DNA of 64,000 bases, from positions 186,001-250,000 of the forward strand of contig JAPLLG010000003.1 of NCBI GenBank assembly GCA_026387665.1. Reading direction: 5' to 3'. The DNA comes from Nitrospirota bacterium (GTDB taxonomy: Bacteria > Nitrospirota > Nitrospiria > Nitrospirales > Nitrospiraceae). Made by a program: the position numbers and the translations under genes. Of the stretch, positions 16,781-62,047 are shown in pieces. A model generated the notes under the pieces. It was not told the DNA's origin. It ran no database searches and saw only the letters and a program-made list of their open reading frames with translations. Each line of letters begins with the position of its first letter. Position 1 is the first letter of the stretch.

Positions 16781-18250
16781 ATGCCACTTCCTGCTCCTGA
16801 CACTCAGCCGCCAACCACCCAATCGGCACGGACGTTCTCACGCAAAATCAAAGCCGGATTTTGGCTGGTGGGAGCCATTCTCCTGTCGATCGGCCTTGCT
16901 TCCTATCAGAGCATACGAGAATTCGAAGAAACCGTGGATTGGGTCACCCATTCGCAGGACGTCTTGGGACATCTCCAAGTCGTGCTGTCCGATGTGCAGG
17001 ACATCGAGATCGGGCTGCGGGGTTATGTCATGACCGGAAAAGAACATTTCCTCGACCCCTACAAAAACGGACTGGTCGTATTGAGTCGCGATAGGGACGC
17101 ACTTTCAGCCATCATTCAAGTGAGTCCGCAGGACCGTGCCGAACATGCGCGCCGCCTCGAAACGCTCAACGCCTTGATCGATAAGAAGCTGGCCCTCTTG
17201 AAGACCATGCTCGCCTTGCGCAAGGGCGCGACCTATCAGTCCGCGCACATGGAATCGCACATGACTGAAAGCAAAGAGCTCCTGGACGGGATCCGTATGG
17301 TCATCAGAGACATGCAGCAGCTGGAGAAGGCGCGGTTGACGGTGCGGGAGCGCCATGCCGACGAAAAGGGCCAGAGCGCCGTGCTCTATTTCATCGCCGG
17401 CGTCATCATGGAAATCATGATTCTGCTCTGGATCGCCTGGCAGATCCGTCAAGAAATCTCGCAACGCCAACAGGCGCAAGATGCGCTTTTGCAGACGCAT
17501 GACGAACTGGAGCTGCGCATTCAAGAGCGGACCACGGCCTTGATCGATTCCAACGAACGGCTGCGCGAGCTCTCGCACCGCTTGATGAATGTGCAAGAGA
17601 CGGAACGCCGGCAGATCGCCCACGATCTGCATGATGAAATCGGACAGTCGCTGACCGCAATGAAGTTGGGGTTGCGCGAGGCGAATACTGCGCTGGAATC
17701 CGGCCCAACCGCTTCCCTGCTGGCCGATAGCCTGACGATCCTGGACCAGGTTATCCAGCAAGTCAGAAATCTCGCCTTGGACCTGCGCCCCTCGCTGCTC
17801 GACGAGTTGGGATTGGTCCCCGCCCTCAAATGGTACATCAAGCGCCAAGGGGAACGAGCCGGCTGGGAAACGGAATATGCCGCACAGCTCGGAGAGAACC
17901 ACCTGCCGCCTAGAGTGGAAATCGCCTGCTTTCGAATCGTGCAGGAAGCCCTCACGAATGTCGCACGCCATGCCGAGGCCACCCATGTGCAAGTGACCTT
18001 GACACGGCAGGGAGATCATCTGCTGTTAATCATCGAGGATAACGGCCAAGGCTTCAACGTCGAGCGGGCAAAGACTCGCGCCAGGACTGGCATCAGCATC
18101 GGGTTACTGGGCATGGAAGAGCGAGCCAAATTGGTCGGGGGGGAGTTGACGATCGCTTCCTCCCCGAAGACCGGCACGAAGCTCACCGCGAGCCTGCCTC
18201 TCGTTGGACTCAATCCGCAACTGGTGACATCGGAAGAGAGGATATCCTAA
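16781..18250 (+). CDS. CHASE3-type sensor histidine kinase (NarX/DegS-like, HisKA_3)
   Basis: 489 aa. The first membrane helix (about residues 27-46) and the second (about 207-227) bracket a periplasmic helical CHASE3 sensor with DVQDIEIGLRGYVMTGKEHFL. A coiled coil leads to the HisKA_3 dimerisation segment, where the phospho-acceptor histidine is in RQIAHDLHDEIGQSL. The C-terminal HATPase has ALTNVARHAEATHVQV and DNGQGF, and ends with GLLGMEERAKLVGGEL. It overlaps the response regulator start (18248-18252), so the two form one pair. Signal and targets are unknown. Confidence 0.93.
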   Translation: MPLPAPDTQPPTTQSARTFSRKIKAGFWLVGAILLSIGLASYQSIREFEETVDWVTHSQDVLGHLQVVLSDVQDIEIGLRGYVMTGKEHFLDPYKNGLVVLSRDRDALSAIIQVSPQDRAEHARRLETLNALIDKKLALLKTMLALRKGATYQSAHMESHMTESKELLDGIRMVIRDMQQLEKARLTVRERHADEKGQSAVLYFIAGVIMEIMILLWIAWQIRQEISQRQQAQDALLQTHDELELRIQERTTALIDSNERLRELSHRLMNVQETERRQIAHDLHDEIGQSLTAMKLGLREANTALESGPTASLLADSLTILDQVIQQVRNLALDLRPSLLDELGLVPALKWYIKRQGERAGWETEYAAQLGENHLPPRVEIACFRIVQEALTNVARHAEATHVQVTLTRQGDHLLLIIEDNGQGFNVERAKTRARTGISIGLLGMEERAKLVGGELTIASSPKTGTKLTASLPLVGLNPQLVTSEERIS

Positions 18251-18900
18251 TGTCTATTCGCGTCTTACTCGCAGACGACCATGCGCTGGTCCGCCAAGGC
18301 ATCCGGTCTCTCCTGGAGAAACTCGACGATATCGAAGTCGTCGGAGAAGTCAGCGATGGACGTCAGGCGCTGGAACTGTCGAAAACCACTCACCCCGATA
18401 TTGCATTCATGGACATTACGATGCCGGGGCTGAACGGCCTCGAAGCGGTCACCCGCATGAAAAAGGAATGTCCGAGTACCCGTGTCGTCATGTTATCAAT
18501 GCATGCGGGCGAAGAATACTTTCAACAAGCGCTGGATTCCGGCGCAGCCGGATACCTGCTCAAAGACGCGGACCGGATGGAGCTGGAGCTCGCGATCAGA
18601 ACCGTGCTGCGAGGAGACACCTACCTGACGCCAACCGTCGCGAAGTATGCCGTCGAGGCCTATCGGCAACGAAAAGACGGCGACCAGGGCCCGCTCGCCA
18701 GTCTCAGCTCTCGACAGAAAGAAATCCTCCAATTGATTGCCGAGGGCTATGCCAACAAAGAGATCGCGCAACGGCTGGACCTGAGTCCTCGCACCGTAGA
18801 AACCCATCGGGCAGAACTCATGGAACGGCTGAACATCCGCGACGTGCCAGGCCTCGTCAAAATCGCGCTACGCGCCGGGCTCATCAAGCCAAGCCAATAA
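18250..18900 (+). CDS. NarL/FixJ-type response regulator
   Basis: 216 aa. The receiver domain has the acidic pair DD at 9-10, the phospho-acceptor D55 in FMDITMPG and the conserved Lys in YLLKDADR. The C-terminal LuxR-type helix-turn-helix reads LSSRQKEILQLIAEGYANKEIA followed by LSPRTVETHRAELMERL. It is coupled to the upstream histidine kinase, so phosphorylation by that kinase should switch on DNA binding. The regulon is unknown, although the next genes (19075 on) lie on the same strand after a 174-bp gap. Confidence 0.95.
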   Translation: MSIRVLLADDHALVRQGIRSLLEKLDDIEVVGEVSDGRQALELSKTTHPDIAFMDITMPGLNGLEAVTRMKKECPSTRVVMLSMHAGEEYFQQALDSGAAGYLLKDADRMELELAIRTVLRGDTYLTPTVAKYAVEAYRQRKDGDQGPLASLSSRQKEILQLIAEGYANKEIAQRLDLSPRTVETHRAELMERLNIRDVPGLVKIALRAGLIKPSQ

Positions 18901-19074: not shown

Positions 19075-19785
19075 GTGATTCATAACCAACCTCAGAGCCA
19101 CGTCGCAGCACGACGCCTCCCCCAGACCATACCGACGGAAGTCTACTGCGATTTCGACGGCACGATCACCACCCTTGACGCCACCGATGCCGTACTTGAA
19201 GCCTTCGCCCTCCCGGCCTGGCGGGATTGGGAAGCCCGATGGGTGAACGGCGAAATCACGAGCCAGGAATGTCTCGCGCGCCAAATCGAACTCATCCAGG
19301 CGGACCGGGACACACTCATCGAATTCGCCGCGAACCTTCCGATCGACGAGGGCTTTCTCACGCTGACCCAACGGTGCACCGAACAGGAAGTCCCGTTCAC
19401 CATTGTGAGCGACGGCATCGATCTCCTGGTCGAAGCAGTCCTGCGCCGGCATGGCCTCTTGCATCTCTCGGTCTTCTCCAACCACCTGCGCTGGAATGAC
19501 GACGGTCGTCCGACCCTCAGCTTCCCCTTCGCGGAAAAAACCTGTGAAAGCGGCGCGGGCACCTGCAAATGCTCGCTGACCCGTCCCACAGATCCCCGAT
19601 CGGCGCGCCCGGTCTATATCGGAGACGGCCGCTCCGATCAATGTGTCTCAGGCAAAATGCAAACCGTCTTTGCCAAAGGCTCGCTCAAAAATTGGTGCGA
19701 GCGAACCGGCATCCCCTGCATCCCATTCAACACGCTGGCCGAAGTGGCCGAACGTCTTTTCCCACAGGAGGCCCGCATCGCATGA
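19075..19785 (+). CDS. HAD-IB phosphatase (MtnX-like)
   Basis: 236 aa, HAD superfamily subclass IB. The nucleophile motif is YCDFDGTITTLDATDAVL (D in DFDGT), motif II is FTIVSDGIDLLV, and motif III/IV is YIGDGRSDQC. The start is GTG 19075 with AAAGGGG upstream. The closest named family is MtnX, which dephosphorylates hydroxyketo-methylthiopentenyl phosphate in methionine salvage, but serine phosphatase-like enzymes share these motifs and no other methionine salvage gene is nearby. Its stop overlaps the aminotransferase start (ATGA), so it probably feeds or drains the same pathway. Confidence 0.8.
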   Translation: MIHNQPQSHVAARRLPQTIPTEVYCDFDGTITTLDATDAVLEAFALPAWRDWEARWVNGEITSQECLARQIELIQADRDTLIEFAANLPIDEGFLTLTQRCTEQEVPFTIVSDGIDLLVEAVLRRHGLLHLSVFSNHLRWNDDGRPTLSFPFAEKTCESGAGTCKCSLTRPTDPRSARPVYIGDGRSDQCVSGKMQTVFAKGSLKNWCERTGIPCIPFNTLAEVAERLFPQEARIA

Positions 19786-21176
19786 AACCTCTCCCAATGG
19801 TCCATCTCAGTGAAGCAGCGCTCCGTGAAAAAGAAGCGAAATACTGTTCGCACGGGGACACCGTCCATTACTCACCCGTCCCGAAATTTTTCCAGAACTG
19901 CGAAGGGAGCTTCCTCTACGACCGCGAGGAGAAGCCCTATCTCGATCTCCAGATGTGGTACTCGGCGGTCAACTTCGGCTATCGCAACCAGAGCATCATC
20001 GATGCCCTGAAGGCCCAGTTGGATCGGCTCCCGCAACTCGCTTGCCAATATCTCCATGAAGAAAAAGTACTCGTGGCCGAGAAGCTGGCCTTGGAATGTT
20101 TGCGGGCCTTCGGCCTGGAGGGACGCATCCAGTTCAACGTGGGCGGCGCGCAGGCCATCGAAGACTCCATGAAGCTCGTGCGGAATGCCACAGGCAAGAG
20201 CCTCTTCATGGCCTTCATGGGCGGCTATCACGGTCGTACCTTGGGCGCATCGGAAATCACATCCAGCTATCGGTATCGCCGCCGGTTCGGGCACTTCTCC
20301 AATCGGGCGCACTTCGTACCCTTCCCCTACTGTTACCGCTGCCCCTACGGGAAGAAGTTAGACTCCTGCGACTATTACTGCGTCAACCAGGTCGAGCGTC
20401 TCTTCGAGACCGAATACAACTCCTTCTGGGATGCCAAGGCCAATGAGCCGGAGTTCGTGGCCTTCTATGTGGAGCCGGTGCAAGCCACGGGCGGCTACAT
20501 CATTCCGCCACCGGAATATTTCTCGAAGCTGCAGAAGATTCTGAGGGAACGCAAGATCCTCCTGGTCGACGACGAAATCCAGATGGGATTTTTCCGCACC
20601 GGCAAGTTCTGGGCGCTCGAAAACTTCGGGGTCCAGCCGGACATCGTCGTTTTCGGCAAGGCCATGACGAACGGGTTGAATCCCATCTCCGGCCTCTGGG
20701 CGACCGAGGCCCTCATTTCACCCGCGAAGTTTCCGCCCGGCTCCACCCATTCGACCTTCGCCTCGAATCCGCTCGGGACCGCGGCAACGCTCGCAACCCT
20801 CTTGTGGATCGAGAAGCAGCAGTACGAGAAGAAGGTCAAAGAATCCGGCGCCTACTTCCTGCGCCAGCTTGAAGCGCTGAAACAGCGTCATGTGACAATC
20901 GGCGATGTCTCAGGGTTGGGCTTAGCCCTGCGCATTGAAGTCACGAAACCGGATCGCTTTACCCCGGATCGGGCCCTTGCCGACAAGATCTTCGAGGCAG
21001 GATTGGCCGGCGGCCTGCCTTCGTCGCGCGGGCCGATGGGCTTGGTGCTGGACATCGGCGGACATTATAAAAATGTGTTTACGCTGGCGCCATCATTGGA
21101 CATCACCACCGCCGAGATCGATCTGGGGATCGAACTCCTGGACTATTTGTTTACCACCTGCAAGGACGGCAAATGA
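19782..21176 (+). CDS. class III (PLP) aminotransferase with a four-cysteine motif
   Basis: 464 aa. The start is the ATG 19782 overlapping the previous stop; an upstream in-frame extension to 19569 lies within the phosphatase gene. PLP-enzyme motifs: FNVGGAQAIEDSMKLVR, YHGRTLGASE, LLVDDEIQMGFFRTGKFWA with the cofactor aspartate, and lysine K293 in VFGKAMTNGLNPISG. It carries CYRCPYG and two more cysteines (C184, C187, C196, C200). Pig GABA aminotransferase binds a [2Fe-2S] cluster through a CxxC at a similar place, so a metal site is possible but unproven. Substrate is unknown: omega-amino acids such as GABA or ornithine are typical. Confidence 0.85.
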   Translation: MKPLPMVHLSEAALREKEAKYCSHGDTVHYSPVPKFFQNCEGSFLYDREEKPYLDLQMWYSAVNFGYRNQSIIDALKAQLDRLPQLACQYLHEEKVLVAEKLALECLRAFGLEGRIQFNVGGAQAIEDSMKLVRNATGKSLFMAFMGGYHGRTLGASEITSSYRYRRRFGHFSNRAHFVPFPYCYRCPYGKKLDSCDYYCVNQVERLFETEYNSFWDAKANEPEFVAFYVEPVQATGGYIIPPPEYFSKLQKILRERKILLVDDEIQMGFFRTGKFWALENFGVQPDIVVFGKAMTNGLNPISGLWATEALISPAKFPPGSTHSTFASNPLGTAATLATLLWIEKQQYEKKVKESGAYFLRQLEALKQRHVTIGDVSGLGLALRIEVTKPDRFTPDRALADKIFEAGLAGGLPSSRGPMGLVLDIGGHYKNVFTLAPSLDITTAEIDLGIELLDYLFTTCKDGK

Positions 21177-22156
21177 CCACAAAGACCTTCAAGGGCCCTG
21201 ACCGGCTCTCCGAGATGGTGGATCGCCAGCCGACGGATATCGTCCTCCAGAACGGCAGGCACTCCCTCGTCTATTTGATCCATGGCATTACCGGCACGCC
21301 GGTCGAGATGCGCTATCTGGCTCGCGGCCTGGCACGGCGTGGCGGAGATGTCTACGCCACAACCCTGCCGGGCCATTGCACCAGCCTGCGCGACCTTGTC
21401 AGGGCCAACGAGCAACAGTGGTGCGACCACATCGCCGCACAATTAACCTATGCGCGGACGCGCTATGAGCATGTCTATGTGGCGGGGTTGAGCGCCGGAT
21501 CGCTGCTTTCGCTCGAAGCCTCAACCATGGTGCCGGTGGATGGAGTCGGCGTCATGTCCCCCACCTTCTTCTATGACGGGTGGAATACCCCCTGGAGCCA
21601 TGCCATCCTGCCGATGGCCCTCAAATTGGTGCCTGAGTGCCTGCAGCATCTCTTGTTCCACCTGGATGGCCCTCCCTACGGCGTGAAAGACAACATGATC
21701 CAGGCGCACATTCGCGCCTCCTACAATCCAAGAGCGGTCTTTCACGAATGGGTCAATTTATGGTGGGAAGGACATGAGAGCGGAGCGGCAGGGAACGGGA
21801 CAGAACCGCCATCGGCCGCATCCAAGGGCTATCCCCTCTTCCCCCTCAGGACTTTGACGGAAATCGATCGGCTCATGAAGCGCGTCAAGGGGAACTTAGG
21901 GAAGGTGTCGGCTCCGACGGTCATCCTGCAAGCGAGCGATGACGATATGACGGGACCTCGCAACGCGCAGTTCGTCCATGACGAAATCGCCTCGCTGCGC
22001 AAGCAAATCGTCATGCTGGACGATTGCTACCATGTCATCACAGTCGACCGGCAGCGCCAGGCTGTGGTCAATCACCTGGCTGAGTTTTTCAAATTGAACG
22101 CCCATGCCAAGCAGGGGGTCGAGGGGCAGAATCAGAGGGAACCGGTCGCAAGTTGA
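21173..22156 (+). CDS. alpha/beta-hydrolase (esterase/lipase-like)
   Basis: 327 aa. The oxyanion-hole stretch is VYLIHGITGTPVEMRYLARGL, the nucleophile elbow is VAGLSAGSLLSLEA (GxSxG), a catalytic Asp is likely in ASDDDMTGPRNAQF, and His in DCYHVITVD. This matches the carboxylesterase/monoacylglycerol-lipase type (Est30-like), with a longer lid around residues 115-235. The start overlaps the aminotransferase stop by four bases (21173-21176), the last of three coupled genes. It may release or form an ester or amide in the same pathway (inference). Confidence 0.83.
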   Translation: MTTKTFKGPDRLSEMVDRQPTDIVLQNGRHSLVYLIHGITGTPVEMRYLARGLARRGGDVYATTLPGHCTSLRDLVRANEQQWCDHIAAQLTYARTRYEHVYVAGLSAGSLLSLEASTMVPVDGVGVMSPTFFYDGWNTPWSHAILPMALKLVPECLQHLLFHLDGPPYGVKDNMIQAHIRASYNPRAVFHEWVNLWWEGHESGAAGNGTEPPSAASKGYPLFPLRTLTEIDRLMKRVKGNLGKVSAPTVILQASDDDMTGPRNAQFVHDEIASLRKQIVMLDDCYHVITVDRQRQAVVNHLAEFFKLNAHAKQGVEGQNQREPVAS

Positions 22157-22238: not shown

Positions 22239-23627
22239 TTAAAATGGGTAATCGAGCCCGACGAACACGTTGGCCCCATCGCGGCCATAGGCGACATCGG
22301 CCCGACCAACGATAGTGGGCTTGACCAACAAGCGAAATCCGACGCCGGGATTGTATTCAAGATTCTTGGCAAGGAGATTCTTGGCCTTCACCGTACTTTG
22401 CCCGACTCGGCCCATGTCGAGAAACGGCGCGACTTCCAGGTGGGTATCGAGACCGAACAATCTTTCGCTGAGTACGGTCACTCGCTCTTCCAGATTCACC
22501 ATGGCAGCCCAGCTGCCAATGTACCGGCCTCGTCCGAACCCGCGAAGGGTATCCTCGCCGCCCAGCGCCGCCTGCTCGTAAAACGGCACACCACGCGTGC
22601 GGCTCCCTACATCCTCGATTTGACCGAACACGCCGTTAATGAATAGGCGCGACACGAACACCATTTGGTCCGATGAATGGGGCTTATAGTGTCGAGCATC
22701 GAGGACTGTGTGCACCCATTCGTTGTTTCCACGTTCTGCCACGTTCTGCGCAAACTCGGCCAACAGGTTTACATAGGTGCCCTTGCTCGTCATCAGCTGG
22801 CTGTCTCTCGTGTCATAACGGAGCGCCAACCCATGGCCCAATATTTGAGCCCCCTGAACGCCTGGGACCAACGCATATTTGGCTGCTGTGCGCGGAAGTG
22901 AGCCGATGATGCCGTCATCCACCCGCACATCGCGATACCGTTCAATCCACATCAGGGCGAAATCCTCAGTGAGATTGATGCCGGCAGTCAGTTTGCCAAG
23001 GAACTCGCGAGAGGTATAATTGGTTTCATCCCGTTCAGGCGTGCGGCTCCCGAAGCCGAAGAATCGGGCGAAGGGATTTTTAAATGCGCTGAGATCTGCA
23101 GCAAAAATAAATCGCCCGCCTCCCGCGCTCACATTCTTATAGCCCAGATCGATCCCCTGATCGAGCCGCTCACCAGCCCAGACCAGCGCATGGTACTGCT
23201 CTGTATCGGAGGGATAGCCGAAATAATTCAGCGACCCGTAATTCCCGACATTTTTATTGTACAGGTACTGCGGGACGAACATTTCCTTCACGTCCCCGGT
23301 GGAATCCGCCTTGAGAATAGGCGCGATACCGCCAAACCACGCCCCTTCATTTTTATTCGTGCCGAAGGCAGGCAGCGGGATGATCGTATAGTCTGGTTTC
23401 GCCGGCAGGGACTTCATCAGATGTTCTGTCGGATGGCTCGAGTCCTCCAGAGGATCCCTCCTCGGAATCCCCCCCCCATCCTCTGCCTCTTGAGTCGAGG
23501 CAATAATCTGCTGGTCCTTCGAAGGACCATAGGGCTCCTCTGCGCCGGCTGAAGTCGGCGCAAGGAGTAGAGCTTGTAGCGTGAGAATCCCGATCCAATA
23601 GATCAGCACGATATCATCCGGCACCAT
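22239..23627 (-). CDS. Omp85-like outer-membrane beta-barrel (BamA/TamA, surface-antigen domain)
   Basis: 462 aa with a signal peptide (IVLIYWIGILTLQALLL, cleavage likely after SAGA). The mature protein is a chain of amphipathic beta-strands ending in aromatic GLDYPF, the C-terminal Phe typical of OMP barrels. Omp85/D15 features include ALRYDTRDSQLMTSKGTYVNL, GVPFYEQAALGGEDTLRGF, and GRYIGSWAAMVNLEERV. The sequence before the barrel is short and lacks visible POTRA repeats, so this is more like a stand-alone Omp85 barrel than BamA. Substrate or partner is unknown. It follows the EamA-type genes on the same strand at a distance of 150 bp. Confidence 0.82.
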   Translation of the reverse strand: MVPDDIVLIYWIGILTLQALLLAPTSAGAEEPYGPSKDQQIIASTQEAEDGGGIPRRDPLEDSSHPTEHLMKSLPAKPDYTIIPLPAFGTNKNEGAWFGGIAPILKADSTGDVKEMFVPQYLYNKNVGNYGSLNYFGYPSDTEQYHALVWAGERLDQGIDLGYKNVSAGGGRFIFAADLSAFKNPFARFFGFGSRTPERDETNYTSREFLGKLTAGINLTEDFALMWIERYRDVRVDDGIIGSLPRTAAKYALVPGVQGAQILGHGLALRYDTRDSQLMTSKGTYVNLLAEFAQNVAERGNNEWVHTVLDARHYKPHSSDQMVFVSRLFINGVFGQIEDVGSRTRGVPFYEQAALGGEDTLRGFGRGRYIGSWAAMVNLEERVTVLSERLFGLDTHLEVAPFLDMGRVGQSTVKAKNLLAKNLEYNPGVGFRLLVKPTIVGRADVAYGRDGANVFVGLDYPF

Positions 23628-23777: not shown

Positions 23778-24143
23778 TCAGCTTAACCCAACCAGCACCA
23801 CGCCGCCAAGAATAAAGCCCAAGCCAATCCACCGTTCCAGGCCGACCTGCTCTTGCAGCCAGACCTTCGACAACAGGGCCACAAAGACGAACCCGATGCT
23901 ACTCGCCGGAAAGGCGATGCTAATATCGAGAAGACGGATCGCCATCGTCCAGATGATCGCCTGGGCGACAAAGCAGAGAATCCCCAGCGCGACGGCTCGA
24001 TTACGCCAAAGACCGCGAAACGGACCCCATTTACTCGTATCCGCGTGGGCGCTCTCCGCCCCATGCTTGAATGCAAGTTGTCCGACCGCTTCGAAGAGGA
24101 CGGCCAGCGTCACCAGGGCCAGACCCATCACGCGAAGGCTCAT
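23778..24143 (-). CDS. EamA/SMR-like four-helix membrane transporter subunit (ArnF-like)
   Basis: 121 aa with four predicted membrane helices: GLALVTLAVLFEAVGQLAF at the start, then AVALGILCFVAQAIIWTMAI, SIGFVFVALLSKVWL, and IGLGFILGGVVLVGL at the end. This is the size and pattern of half-transporters in the DMT superfamily such as ArnE/ArnF, which flip an undecaprenyl-linked sugar. It overlaps the second half gene at 24140-24143. Two different half-subunits in tandem suggest a heterodimer. Confidence 0.78.
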   Translation of the reverse strand: MSLRVMGLALVTLAVLFEAVGQLAFKHGAESAHADTSKWGPFRGLWRNRAVALGILCFVAQAIIWTMAIRLLDISIAFPASSIGFVFVALLSKVWLQEQVGLERWIGLGFILGGVVLVGLS

Positions 24144-24604
24144 TGAGGCACCTCAGGCATCGATGGCTCCTCGCCCTGAACTGGAGCGAGCCCGGCAGTC
24201 CGGACGTTCGTGCGGCTGATGACCCAGACTCCGACCATGATCATGGCCAGGCCAGCCATCCGCGACAGGGACAGTTGGTCTTGAAACAACACCACCGACG
24301 CGCCACTGACTGTGACATAGCTCAGGGCCGTGACCGGTTGCGCATAGCTGAGATCGGCATGGGCCAGGACGATCATCCAATTGAAGAACTGCATGCAGAA
24401 CACGATCAGCGCGACATGGAACAACGGTTCATGGAGGATTGCGGCGACGCTCTGCCAGAGACCGACCGTCTCCGGGACCTGTTCGATGGCGAACTTCCAG
24501 CAGAGCTGCACGACCGTGTCCATGGCAATCGCCAGAGTCAGCGTCAGCCAGACAAGTTGTCGCCGGCTCAACAGCGTAGGTTTCGAAGTCGCTGGCTGGG
24601 TCAT
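24140..24604 (-). CDS. EamA/SMR-like four-helix membrane transporter subunit (ArnE-like partner)
   Basis: 154 aa with four membrane segments (WLTLTLAIAMDTVVQLCWKFA; ALIVFCMQFFNWMIVLAH; ALSYVTVSGASVVLF; LAMIMVGVWVI). It has a short cytosolic N-terminus and a Pro/Glu-rich C-tail. The ATGA overlap with 23778..24143 means both halves are translated together. Members of this DMT group carry small drugs, lipid-linked sugars or metabolites; nothing in the sequence decides which. Confidence 0.78.
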   Translation of the reverse strand: MTQPATSKPTLLSRRQLVWLTLTLAIAMDTVVQLCWKFAIEQVPETVGLWQSVAAILHEPLFHVALIVFCMQFFNWMIVLAHADLSYAQPVTALSYVTVSGASVVLFQDQLSLSRMAGLAMIMVGVWVISRTNVRTAGLAPVQGEEPSMPEVPQ

Positions 24605-30556: not shown

Positions 30557-30631
30557 AAATGGCCCTAGTGACGTAGTTCACTGTCCAATTGCTTAGACAC
30601 CTCAGCTATCGTCCCTCCGGAAGGAGCCTTG

Positions 30632-31696
30632 ATGGTTGCAGAACTCTCCGAGTGGTCGCAGTACCTCAGCGCACCGATCGATCCACAGGCCGTGGAGGAC
30701 CGTCGGACCCAATGCGACGCCGCCTTTCGTGACCAGCAGGACAATCTGATCAAATGCTATCGCACCTTCAAACCCAAGACGATTGCCTGCATGGGCGCCG
30801 GCTGTCTCACCGACATACCAGTTGACGTATTTCTACGCGGCGGCAGTCGCGTCGCGCTCATCGATTGGATTCCTCAAATTACCGAACTCGGGTTTCAACG
30901 CGACCTCGTCCGGCGCGATGGCAACAAATATGCGTGCCTGGTGTGCGAAGTGGAGACCTGCCCTGAGCAAGTCTGCCAAGGATTCGCGAAATCCCAGTCC
31001 CGTCGCGGCGGGGTCTGCGATAATTTCCGCCTGAGCGACAACCCCTCTTGTTGCCGATGCGCAGGATACAAGGCGGGCCCTTCGCCTCTGTTTCTGACCG
31101 CCGAAGTCACGCAGGGACGGGCCGGCCAGTTTGCGCAACGCATGACCGCCGCCGCCCTGACCTGTGACACCGCAGCCCAATGTTTCCAAAAGGCGATCGA
31201 CGTCTGCCACGACTGTGCCGAAATTCGCGAGGAGCTCCCCCTCCCGACCGGCAGTATCGACCTCGTCACATCGTCGATGGTCGTCTCGCAGTTCGAGTAC
31301 GAACCCTACGGCTTCTTCTCAAAACTTTTGGCTCGCCGCTATGGGGCAAACGCCCTGCGACACGACACAGCACTCATTCCGCTGATGGAAACGCTACGAA
31401 CAAAACTGTTCGAGCTGTTAATGGACGCGCATCTGTCTGAAATCTACCGTGTGGTGAACAAAGACCATGGCAAGGTTTATTTCTCCGTCGAGCTGTTTTC
31501 CTCACAGCCCCAGCCGGAGAAGGATCAGTACTTCCTCGTCCAAGGAATGCCCCAAGTGCTCGAAAAGCTCCGCACCCTGTTCCTGTTCGATTTCTCGGTC
31601 ATTCCCCTTCAACGCGCCTACCGACGCACCAAGATGGGAGCCCAATCCTCCATCATCCAGTCCTACGTCCTGACGCCCATCCCTGCCAGCCCGTAA
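30632..31696 (+). CDS. methyltransferase-like protein with a cysteine-cluster insert
   Basis: 354 aa. ATG 30632 has AAGGAG five bases upstream. IACMGAGCLTDIPVDVFL followed by an acidic VALIDWIP resembles motif I and post-I of a SAM-binding Rossmann fold; GSIDLVTSSMVVSQFEYEP fits motif IV. Between them an insert holds eight cysteines (C102, C105, C110, C115, C129, C140, C141, C143), enough for a zinc or Fe-S site, and it seems to replace part of the usual fold. No catalytic motif decides the reaction. It is flanked on both sides by the same direct repeat (family C), and appears to be its own module. Confidence 0.65.
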   Translation: MVAELSEWSQYLSAPIDPQAVEDRRTQCDAAFRDQQDNLIKCYRTFKPKTIACMGAGCLTDIPVDVFLRGGSRVALIDWIPQITELGFQRDLVRRDGNKYACLVCEVETCPEQVCQGFAKSQSRRGGVCDNFRLSDNPSCCRCAGYKAGPSPLFLTAEVTQGRAGQFAQRMTAAALTCDTAAQCFQKAIDVCHDCAEIREELPLPTGSIDLVTSSMVVSQFEYEPYGFFSKLLARRYGANALRHDTALIPLMETLRTKLFELLMDAHLSEIYRVVNKDHGKVYFSVELFSSQPQPEKDQYFLVQGMPQVLEKLRTLFLFDFSVIPLQRAYRRTKMGAQSSIIQSYVLTPIPASP

Positions 31697-31708
31697 AGAC
31701 AATCCATG

Positions 31709-31766
31709 ATATGTGAGGGGAGGATCGATCAGTAGTATCCCGGCAGGCTCAACTCGCGGTGACTTC
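31709..31766 (+). repeat. family C direct repeat, copy C2
   Basis: This copy has a longer matching context than C1: ATGATATG and a purine-rich GAGG stretch, then CCGGCAGGCTCAACTCGCGG and TGACTTC. Copy C3 at 32811 shares the same leading ATGATATG. It sits between the methyltransferase-like gene and the toxin-antitoxin pair. Confidence 0.7.
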
Positions 31767-31830
31767 CAAACGACTACGCCCCATATCCCGCACGTAGCGC
31801 CAGCCTTGCCGGGCATGAGGCGATCTGCTA

Positions 31831-31853
31831 TTGTCTATACAACTGCCATACAA
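31831..31853 (+). promoter_or_regulatory. operator-like repeats upstream of the antitoxin gene
   Basis: CTATACAA and CCATACAA are spaced 11 bases apart, and TTGTCTATACAA is itself palindromic. Phd/YefM antitoxins bind such short repeats to repress their own promoter. The ribosome site TGGAGG follows at 31854-31859. Confidence 0.4.
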
Positions 31854-31865
31854 TGGAGGCCTGAC

Positions 31866-32147
31866 ATGAGCGGGACGAATCTAGTACGAAAAGCGAAGCC
31901 GGTCAACGTGCGAGACGCCCAAGCGCAACTCTCGAAGCTGATCCGCTCGAAATCCCCCACGATGGTCCTCTCCCATGGCAAACCGGTGTCGTTCCTTGTC
32001 CCTTACGAGGACATGCTGAACTTGGTCGACACCCTCAATGAGTTAAAAGACAAGAAGCTGCTCGGGGAAATCGAACGGGCACGGATCGAGTATAGGCAGG
32101 GAAAAGCAGTCCCTGCGGAACGGCTCTTCAAGAAAATGGGGTTCTAG
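31866..32147 (+). CDS. Phd/YefM-type antitoxin
   Basis: 93 aa. The start is ATG 31866, with TGGAGG six bases before; the longer open frame from 31713 includes repeat sequence and is not supported. VNVRDAQAQLSKLI and LSHGKPVSFLVPYEDML are the Phd/YefM fold signature that dimerises and binds the operator. The charged C-terminus should wrap around the toxin. It is followed without a gap by the RelE-type gene (stop TAG, then GTG at 32148), a normal antitoxin-toxin order. Confidence 0.85.
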   Translation: MSGTNLVRKAKPVNVRDAQAQLSKLIRSKSPTMVLSHGKPVSFLVPYEDMLNLVDTLNELKDKKLLGEIERARIEYRQGKAVPAERLFKKMGF

Positions 32148-32447
32148 GTGGAATACGACGTCGTCTTCCCGAGCGAACGGGTCGAACGTCTCTTCCAGAA
32201 GACATTGGAAAAGATTCCCACAGACTACAGTGCCGCGATCATCGCCGCCGTCAGATCGCTCAAAAGCAATCCCCAGCCTCAAGGCAAGCGCACCAAGAAG
32301 CTGGTCGGAGAACTCATCGTGTCCCGATTCACCGCTGAGTATCGGCTGCGAGTCGGCCCCTACCGGGTACTGTACGATATCGACGACCAGCGCAAGAAAG
32401 TCGTCCTCCTCAAACTTGCCAAGCGCGACGACCAGACCTACGGCTAG
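32148..32447 (+). CDS. RelE/ParE-family toxin
   Basis: 99 aa starting at GTG 32148. The fold signature is at the C-terminus: AEYRLRVGPYRVLYDIDDQRKKVVLLKLAKRDDQTYG, where Arg, Tyr and Lys match the RelE/YoeB mRNA-binding and cleaving residues. ParE members share this pattern, so the target could be mRNA at the ribosome or gyrase. It is directly coupled to the antitoxin. The pair may act in plasmid-like maintenance of this island or in phage defence (inference). Confidence 0.85.
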   Translation: MEYDVVFPSERVERLFQKTLEKIPTDYSAAIIAAVRSLKSNPQPQGKRTKKLVGELIVSRFTAEYRLRVGPYRVLYDIDDQRKKVVLLKLAKRDDQTYG

Positions 32448-60452: not shown

Positions 60453-61709
60453 ATGCGGGCACGGGTCGTCGTCACAGGGCTGGGAGTTGTCTCACCGATC
60501 GGCATCGGGATTAGTGAATTTTGGAAAGCCGCCCTCGCCGGCCAATCCGGCATCTCGGCCATTACCTCCTTCGCTCCTTTTGCCATGGATGGCTACCGCT
60601 CCAAGGTGGCGGGCCAAGTGCGCGACTTTTCGGTCGAACGGTTTCTCGACAGCGCCCACGGCGAACGAGTCGACCGCTACGCCCAGTTCGCCCTGGTTTC
60701 GACAAAAGAAGCGCTGGCCGACTCAGGCCTCAAGATGGCAAAGGAAGACCCCCACCGGGTCGGGGTCATCGTGGGAGCCGGCATGGGTGGCATGGTGATG
60801 GGCGAACGTGAGGTCACGCAGCTCTATGAGCAGCAGAAACCCCATCGTGTCCATCCGAACTTCATTCCCACCATCACGCTCAACTCCGCCTCCGGCATCA
60901 TCGCAATGGCCTACGGGGCCAAGGGACCTAATCTGACCATCTCGACCGCCTGCTCCTCTAGCGCCCATGCGCTCGGGCAAGCGCTCCACTGCATTCGCGA
61001 AGGCCGGGCCGATGTCGTGATCGTCGTGGGAGCCGACGCCAGCATCACCCCCCTTGTCTTCGCAGGATTTTGTTCCTTGCGCGCCCTCTCCTCCAAATTC
61101 AACGATCAACCGGAAAAGGCCTCCCGACCGTTCGATCGGTCTCGCGACGGCTTCGTCATGGGAGAAGGCGCCGGCACCTTAATCCTAGAATCGGCTACCC
61201 ATGCCAAAAAGCGCAAAGCCCGTGTCTATGCAGAAGTAGCCGGCTACGCGGCCACCAGCGAGGCCTATCATATGGTCATCCCTCGTGAGGATGGCCTGGA
61301 AGTCGCGCACACGATGAAGCTGGCGCTTGCGGATGCAGGCCTGACCCCGTCACAGGTGGATTACATCAATGCCCACGCCACATCGACGACGATCGGCGAC
61401 GCGGTCGAAGCCAAGGCGATCAGGCAGCTCTTTAAATCGCGCGCCGACAAGATCGCTATCAGCGCCACCAAGTCTCTGATCGGCCATACCCTGGGCGCAG
61501 CCGGAGCCATCGGAGGCATCGCCTCGGTGCTGGCCCTCCAGACTGGCCAAATCCACCCGACGGCCAACTACGATGATCCGGACCCGGCCTGTGCCTTGGC
61601 GGGGCTCTCCCGCTCAGCGCAGGAACGTCGGGTGAAAGTCGCCCTGCTGAACGCCTTTGGATTTGGCAGCAACAACGCCGCTGTGGTATTGAAACAGGCA
61701 ACCACGTAA
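60453..61709 (+). CDS. fabF: beta-ketoacyl-ACP synthase (FabF-type)
   Basis: 418 aa. AAAGGA lies before ATG 60453. RVVVTGLGVVSPIGIG is the thiolase-fold N-terminus. The catalytic Cys is C167 in STACSSSAHALGQAL; the two catalytic histidines are in NAHATSTTIGD and SLIGHTLGAAGAIGG. The TACSSS wording is a little different from the usual TACATG of FabF, closer to PKS-like ketosynthases. It is followed by an ACP and lpxD, so it may make chains for lipid A rather than serve bulk fatty acid synthesis (inference). Confidence 0.9.
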   Translation: MRARVVVTGLGVVSPIGIGISEFWKAALAGQSGISAITSFAPFAMDGYRSKVAGQVRDFSVERFLDSAHGERVDRYAQFALVSTKEALADSGLKMAKEDPHRVGVIVGAGMGGMVMGEREVTQLYEQQKPHRVHPNFIPTITLNSASGIIAMAYGAKGPNLTISTACSSSAHALGQALHCIREGRADVVIVVGADASITPLVFAGFCSLRALSSKFNDQPEKASRPFDRSRDGFVMGEGAGTLILESATHAKKRKARVYAEVAGYAATSEAYHMVIPREDGLEVAHTMKLALADAGLTPSQVDYINAHATSTTIGDAVEAKAIRQLFKSRADKIAISATKSLIGHTLGAAGAIGGIASVLALQTGQIHPTANYDDPDPACALAGLSRSAQERRVKVALLNAFGFGSNNAAVVLKQATT

Positions 61710-61732
61710 CGAACCAACGAGAGAATCCATCG

Positions 61733-62047
61733 ATGGCAACAGACCCCACCATATCCCTGAAGATCCGCACCTCCTTGGGCGAGTACCTCAAACGAGATCC
61801 CGCGACGATACTGGTCACCCAACATCTGCGCGACGACTTGGGGCTCGACTCGATGGCGGTCATCGAATTACTCTATCGTATCGAAGAAGCCTTCGATCTC
61901 CAGATCCCGGACCAGGACCTGGTGGGACTGACGACGGTTGGCCATGTCGTGGGCTATGTTGAAAAACGGTTGGGGAAATCGGCCCCAGCAGCCCCGACAA
62001 AGAAACCAGCGACGCTCAAAAAACCGAAGAGCAAAAAGAAACTGTAA
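61733..62047 (+). CDS. acyl carrier protein with basic C-terminal tail
   Basis: 104 aa. The 4'-phosphopantetheine site is S40 in [20 protein letters not shown], a good DSM/DSL motif, followed by the helix III region [15 protein letters not shown]. The last 22 residues are Lys/Pro/Ala-rich ([15 protein letters not shown]), which ordinary AcpP lacks. The gene lies 23 bp after fabF and 4 bp before lpxD, so it may be a dedicated carrier for the nearby ketosynthase and acyltransferase. Confidence 0.88.

Follow-up and report, generated by a model that had tools for sequence, protein, structure and literature searches.

What do a phosphatase, an aminotransferase-like enzyme and an esterase-like hydrolase make together when their genes overlap end to start? 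The question is raised by a stretch of 64,000 nucleotides from a Nitrospirota bacterium (contig JAPLLG010000003.1, positions 186,001 to 250,000 of the forward strand, assembly GCA_026387665.1), referred to here in its whole length as the window. On its plus strand, a HAD-IB phosphatase of the MtnX-like subfamily (HAD, 19075..19785) is followed by a class III pyridoxal-phosphate (PLP) enzyme with an aminotransferase fold (AT, 19782..21176) and by an alpha/beta hydrolase of the monoacylglycerol lipase/carboxylesterase type (21173..22156). A preliminary description of the window had called the three genes coupled, and its coordinates, strand and reading frames are all correct: an ATGA at 19782-19785 holds the stop of HAD and the start of AT, and another at 21173-21176 holds the stop of AT and the start of the hydrolase gene, giving two overlaps for three genes. 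It is proposed here, tentatively and with somewhat less than an even chance of being right, that this operon makes the precursor for an as yet uncharacterised envelope-lipid or glycolipid pathway controlled by a two-component system, with AT predicted to catalyse an amination and HAD a dephosphorylation. The parts come from known superfamilies; their combination and the active site of AT match no pathway described in the literature searched, which agrees with the earlier statement that no known pathway combines them, and neither a description of the cluster nor an experimental annotation of the pair was found there. The parts available of PMC7660261, PMC8305402 and PMC8770908 concern other class III genes.

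The conservation of the gene order was analysed in 83 loci, comprising the window, the best 80 of 332 relatives from one-per-species genomes and two annotated rhizobial plasmids. In 79 of the 81 loci whose sequence extends upstream of AT, the gene immediately before AT on the same strand is HAD, the exceptions being L104, where the order is AT-HAD, and L079, with a gap of 1.3 kb. No HAD was present in the available DNA around any of ten class III paralogues within the same clade (32-34% identity). The family to which the window belongs was represented by 175 genomes, of which 16 contain AT (at least 85% identity), 15 contain HAD (E 1e-25) and 14 contain both; in each of the three discordant genomes the gene is at a contig edge. 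The neighbourhood comparison that the preliminary description had named as its own test therefore finds the genes kept together rather than scattered, and tight coupling is borne out by the gene order as well as by the ATGA overlaps. The third gene is exchangeable: a hydrolase is present in 34 of the 83 loci and a PaaK-like AMP-ligase in 45, both never occur together, and four loci have neither. Where the hydrolase is present, 22 of the 34 loci have it no more than 60 bases behind AT. The tight unit is thus HAD plus AT, and the idea of a fixed three-gene unit stands for this pair and not for its third member. The patchy distribution of the cluster and its plasmid location in rhizobia suggest horizontal transfer. 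An apparent HAD-AT gene fusion in L087 (a 705-aa frame) was rejected, as the N-terminal part is not HAD and the HAD match lies in another frame.

AT scores 248.6 bits against PF00202, the class III aminotransferase superfamily (cut-off 30.5), and reaches no cut-off among the listed NCBIfam families, with PigE among the weak matches. Residue conservation was followed in 85 distinct AT sequences, obtained from 98 by dropping four shorter than 400 aa (L017, L018, L028 and L054) and merging identical ones. With GABA-AT, phosphoethanolamine phospho-lyase, dialkylglycine decarboxylase and the amino-acid racemases, AT shares the fold and the invariant residues K293, presumably the Schiff-base lysine, D264 and R152, whose roles are likewise assumed. 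In contrast to these enzymes, AT has an invariant family-specific set comprising Y60, Q89, H92, R164, Y165, R166, H323 and K430, and carries threonines where GABA-AT-type enzymes have the Glu-Arg pair of the dual-substrate switch (presumably E211 and R398 of E. coli GABA-AT). These threonines are T236, present in 85 of 85 sequences, and T434, in 83 of 85; E231 and T325 are also invariant, and D424 is kept in 83 of 85. By the Glu-Arg switch, AT falls outside the GABA/acetylornithine type, whereas both residues are found in 9 of the 11 class III enzymes from the same clade that served as controls, and the top PDB relatives show Glu or Asp, plus Arg where the alignment extends. The loss of both switch residues argues against ordinary use of glutamate and 2-oxoglutarate, for which AT appears an unlikely enzyme.

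The label omega-type aminotransferase given to AT earlier is right as to class III and imprecise as to type, since the arginine of GABA-AT-type enzymes corresponds to T434, and the one carried by a single control, L002, corresponds to the aspartate D424. The four cysteines C184, C187, C196 and C200, which had been presented as a distinctive site, are not so: all four are present in 9 of the 11 controls, and two rhizobial AT members have lost three of them. From the sequence conservation, the phosphate of a substrate could be held by the basic residues R164, R166 and K430. The structure model of AT has a predicted local distance difference test (pLDDT) score of 81.1, and its least confident part is the loop 155-174, in which R164 and R166 lie. 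Separately, at G144:C452:3317-4524 (L018 and L028), AT runs over two frames with a stop, which reflects either a broken gene or an error of the draft assembly.

The loss of the switch also opens the alternative that AT is a phospho-lyase, an ammonia-lyase, a decarboxylase or a racemase/mutase, which with HAD would process an amino-alcohol phosphate or an amino acid. The conserved T236 and T434 favour it, as does the fold comparison, in which human phosphoethanolamine phospho-lyase (6tor, Z 40.7) and dialkylglycine decarboxylase (40.7) are tied with GABA-AT (Z 41.4), so that aminotransferase, phospho-lyase, decarboxylase and racemase are not separable for AT by fold. Racemases are, moreover, among its best PDB sequence matches, the first being an Ala/Ser racemase; a profile search with the AT alignment against the PDB gave no match at E 1e-70, a limit that was probably too strict. 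However, the two racemases among the five PDB alignments listed keep Asp and Arg at the switch positions, and a phospho-lyase would leave no phosphate for HAD in the same route. On balance, this alternative is considered unlikely.

The proposal of an envelope pathway draws on the neighbourhoods of the pair. Hydrolase-type loci occur in Nitrospirota, Methylomirabilota, Alphaproteobacteria and other groups, and ligase-type loci mostly in Acidobacteriota and Omnitrophota. Flanks of 4 kb or more on each side are available for 22 hydrolase-type loci. In these, a histidine kinase and a response regulator are each found in 19 (counts that rest on similarity and may include unrelated two-component genes), SMR/EamA proteins in 14, a FemAB-like protein in 9, an arginase-like protein in 6, DegT in 4, FabF and acyl carrier protein (ACP) in 3 each, and desaturase and CFAS in 2 each. 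In 26 of the ligase-type loci, the neighbours include a glycosyltransferase (21), FabF (15), a deacetylase (13), radical SAM (12), ACP (11) and an ABC exporter (10), and in Acidobacteriota the glycosyltransferase, deacetylase, radical SAM, ABC exporter and PaaK-like ligase genes accompany the pair. Rhizobial and agrobacterial plasmids carry the order regulator-kinase-HAD-AT-arginase-ArnE-like-(desaturase)-hydrolase-GNAT-ArnF-like-(CFAS)-MipA/OmpV, which is found in compact form, with neither desaturase nor CFAS, in Agrobacterium larrymoorei. In Nitrospirota, locus L050 reads histidine kinase-response regulator-HAD-AT-hydrolase-FabF-ACP-FemAB-SMR-DegT. The downstream side of the cluster bears an outer-membrane gene, MipA/OmpV in rhizobia and an Omp85-family gene in Nitrospira, where the latter is a conserved neighbour (adjoining HAD, AT and the hydrolase in L034, L035, L036, L037, L039, L040 and L041).

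A divergent arginase-fold family with GSGDFHH, DNHPD and SIDKD-type motifs and weak Pfam and NCBIfam scores accompanies the hydrolase-type cluster (L050:16949-17947, L032:16388-17341 and L104:14158-15138). A conserved protein of 125 aa whose N-terminal part includes a hydrophobic stretch is encoded immediately before HAD (for example at L007:334-714, L037:1034-1411 and L010:390-776); its gene is found in 11 loci of Nitrospira relatives, duplicates included, and not in the window. In the cyanobacterial locus L110 (1693-7899), AT is followed by genes for GNAT, Zn-alcohol dehydrogenase, SDR, DUF1349, sugar-isomerase-like and amino-acid permease proteins, and the sugar-modifying enzymes together with GNAT point to a sugar-derived compound there, not to serinol.

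While the HAD-AT linkage stays constant, the acyl, ligase, glycosyl and flippase-like partners change, as would fit a pair that provides an amine-bearing unit from which an envelope product is built. For the substrate and product we infer the following route. AT would transfer an amino group to a ketone or aldehyde that is small and phosphorylated, such as dihydroxyacetone phosphate (DHAP, giving serinol phosphate) or a sugar phosphate, and HAD would then free the amino-alcohol. In hydrolase-type clusters, a FemAB-like acyltransferase of the GNAT type, together with the alpha/beta hydrolase, could acylate or activate the amine, a task that would fall in ligase-type clusters to the PaaK-like ligase with FabF/ACP and a glycosyltransferase. 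Finally, the ArnE/ArnF-like pair or an ABC exporter would move the lipid-linked product outward. Serinol from DHAP is the simplest example of such a product. The preliminary description had suggested that the operon makes or degrades a small amino-alcohol or an amino acid derivative; a small amino-alcohol remains the best guess, and degradation is less likely than synthesis because acyltransferase, ligase, glycosyltransferase and flippase-like genes are among the neighbours. The hydrolase, predicted to be an esterase, thioesterase or transacylase, belongs to Hydrolase_4, and its nearest PDB relatives are thermostable monoacylglycerol lipases and carboxylesterases. In 49 relatives, its catalytic Ser107 is kept in 44 (Cys in 4, a gap in 1), D257 in 46 (3 gaps) and H287 in 45 (4 gaps).

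A further-reaching form of this proposal, rather unlikely in its entirety, holds that AT represents an undescribed class III PLP family that has abandoned the switch and uses R164, R166 and K430 for a phosphorylated substrate. Together with HAD, it would make the amino-alcohol head group of a likewise undescribed envelope lipid class in Nitrospirota, Methylomirabilota, Acidobacteriota, Omnitrophota and some Proteobacteria, with two-component control in hydrolase-type clusters.

The same neighbourhoods can be turned to another alternative, in which AT acts on an acyl chain (a beta-ketoacyl-ACP or a fatty aldehyde) to give an amino-fatty acid or fatty amine, and HAD dephosphorylates a lipid intermediate. 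Class III enzymes that aminate polyketide-type chains exist, PigE is among the weak matches of AT, and FabF/ACP, FabA-like or desaturase/CFAS genes adjoin HAD-AT in many loci. FabF/ACP are nevertheless missing from many others, including 19 of the 22 well-flanked hydrolase-type loci, yet HAD stays with AT, and a small soluble HAD-IB enzyme would be an unusual lipid phosphatase. Acyl-chain amination is accordingly regarded as improbable.

Regarding HAD, the phosphatase scores 101.7 bits against TIGR01489, the MtnX-like HAD-IB subfamily (cut-off 81.55), and exceeds the cut-off of PF06888 (Put_Phosphatase), a family that presumably includes phosphoethanolamine/phosphocholine phosphatases. Its catalytic residues are kept in 95 relatives (D26/D28 in 94, with one gap; S112, K165, D184 and D188 in all), and its model (pLDDT 92.6) has MtnX 2fea as the best PDB fold match (TMq 0.82). 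Phosphoserine phosphatases are the second-best match of the HAD profile. Since an Ala/Ser racemase is also the best PDB match of AT, a serine-type metabolism could be envisaged, in which a SerB-like HAD and an amino-acid racemase would provide L- or D-serine for building the envelope. This seems very unlikely: the SerB model TIGR00338 gives HAD 26.2 of the 144.15 bits needed, a better SerB-like gene (56.9 bits, also below the cut-off) lies elsewhere in the genome, and AT has not kept the racemase residues at the switch. A variant of methionine salvage, with HAD as MtnX and AT as the final 4-methylthio-2-oxobutyrate aminotransferase, has hardly any probability despite the shared subfamily and fold, given that HAD misses both MtnX equivalog cut-offs by far (TIGR03333, 89.1 of 303.2 bits; PRK09552, 110.6 of 292 bits), that no mtn gene is among the neighbour families identified, and that a search for acireductone dioxygenase (PF03079), positive in 5 of 14 control genomes, finds nothing in the source genome.

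The regulatory part of the envelope-lipid proposal was analysed through sigma54. NtrC-type regulators carry a GAFTGA motif, and the sigma54 site has a -24/-12 consensus. The analysis covered 78 of the 83 loci, the rest having no HAD immediately upstream or less than 300 bases of preceding sequence; NtrC-type regulators were identified by a six-frame GAFTGA search within 9 kb, and sites with at most one mismatch were accepted. Of the 13 non-PaaK loci with an NtrC-type regulator, 10 have a sigma54 site before HAD, versus 2 of the 22 that lack such a regulator (7 of 10 versus 5 of 25 in a version based on pruned reading frames, superseded by the six-frame search). The ten sites lie 54-104 bases upstream of the HAD match start and belong to two lineages (Alphaproteobacteria-type and Nitrospirota), so they are not independent. 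Of the two sites lacking an NtrC-type regulator, one is in L086, whose regulator could not be assigned to a type, and the other, in L093, lies 3 bases away from the match and is probably fortuitous. The 43 ligase-type loci show neither a sigma54 site nor an NtrC-type regulator. This association in relatives supports the link to a two-component pair that the preliminary description had noted, although for the window operon itself we infer such control from gene position.

In the window, the two-component pair stands upstream of HAD and in the same direction, as claimed. It consists of a sensor histidine kinase (16781..18250, plus strand; Pfam CHASE3, HisKA_3 and HATPase_c) and a NarL/LuxR-type response regulator (18250..18900, plus strand) whose gene overlaps that of the kinase by one base and is separated from HAD by 174 bases. 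A kinase of the same type is found upstream of HAD in L034, L035 and L036. On the downstream side, an Omp85-family outer-membrane protein (22239..23627; PF01103) and two EamA/SMR proteins closest to the flippase subunits ArnE (23778..24143) and ArnF (24140..24604), whose genes overlap each other, are encoded on the minus strand, so the plus-strand operon ends at 22156. Both EamA proteins remain below the family cut-offs (46.7 of 92 bits for ArnE and 47.5 of 99 for ArnF), as do those of the rhizobial locus L032, which also score best against ArnE and ArnF. Between 18700 and 22400, the promoter search detected no sigma70-like promoter, and terminator-like sites showed no excess over chance.

Candidates for the remaining steps are dispersed in this genome. 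A FemAB-like gene at C3:15172-16332 is 77% identical to one beside HAD, AT and the hydrolase in genome G148. FemAB-like genes of either type are present in 9 of the 175 genomes (one, in G072, a fragment), and 7 of these 9 have AT (one, G029, with internal stops), against 16 AT carriers overall, a hypergeometric probability of 4e-7 that ignores shared ancestry. Within the window, a FabF-type synthase and an ACP are encoded at 60453-62047, flanked by what we take to be two LptF/LptG-like genes before and an LpxD-like gene directly after. This ACP clusters with ACPs beside HAD, AT and the hydrolase in relatives; the similarity of the two genes to the cluster ACP and FabF genes is distant, and as a partner pair they remain a lead. 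Elsewhere in the window, a small gene pair at 31713-32447 has by eye the look of a putative Phd/RelE-type antitoxin-toxin system, and a cysteine-rich protein at 30629-31696 that of a putative methyltransferase.

Several observations weigh against the envelope-lipid proposal. The FemAB-like gene lies about 190 kb away among unrelated neighbours (SelR, DUF1810 and flagellar genes), the arginase-like gene is absent from this genome (it was found in 3 of the 175), and the window has no acyl gene in the immediate cluster. Among the well-flanked hydrolase-type loci, 12 of 22 are devoid of any acyl gene of the query set, and the L110 neighbourhood looks soluble rather than lipid-related. The window shows no sigma54 site, and its regulator is of the NarL/LuxR type. 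Moreover, the loss of the switch could mean that AT is not an aminotransferase.

The HAD-AT pair is common among phyla of soil and groundwater whose membranes are poorly known, and in rhizobia it is carried on plasmids. If it does supply an amine-bearing envelope component, the genes of the cluster could be tested directly for a role in a new lipid or in surface-charge modification, and AT would add a specificity new to class III PLP enzymes. Isolates carrying the cluster include Rhizobium, Telmatospirillum siberiense and Pyrinomonas methylaliphatogenes.

Finally, the proposed pathway can be compared with known systems. With MtnX, the 2-hydroxy-3-keto-5-methylthiopentenyl-1-phosphate phosphatase, HAD has in common the fold and the TIGR01489 subfamily, but not the equivalog scores or the companion dioxygenase. 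The aminoarabinose (Arn) modification of lipid A, with PmrAB, resembles the window in its small EamA pair and two-component system, and in the amine-bearing envelope product proposed here, and some relatives of the cluster add a DegT aminotransferase and a PMT_2 glycosyltransferase. It differs in that the window pair does not reach the ArnE and ArnF cut-offs and the DegT genes of the relatives score 59-82 of the 631 bits of the ArnB model PRK11658; to our knowledge, HAD and a class III AT are not part of Arn. In the SerC/SerB, HisC/HisB-N and NtdA/NtdB pairs, amination of a phosphorylated carbonyl compound by a PLP enzyme is followed by removal of the phosphate by a HAD enzyme. The same two-step logic is proposed here, with the difference that their aminotransferases are not known to be class III, whereas AT is, and that HAD stays below the SerB cut-off. 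A precedent for serinol would be the N-terminal domain of RtxA in rhizobitoxine synthesis, for which the part available of PMC3222319 describes the conversion of DHAP to serinol by transamination and dephosphorylation. RtxA is one bifunctional protein, in contrast to the two genes found here, and the likeness would lie at the level of the chemistry.

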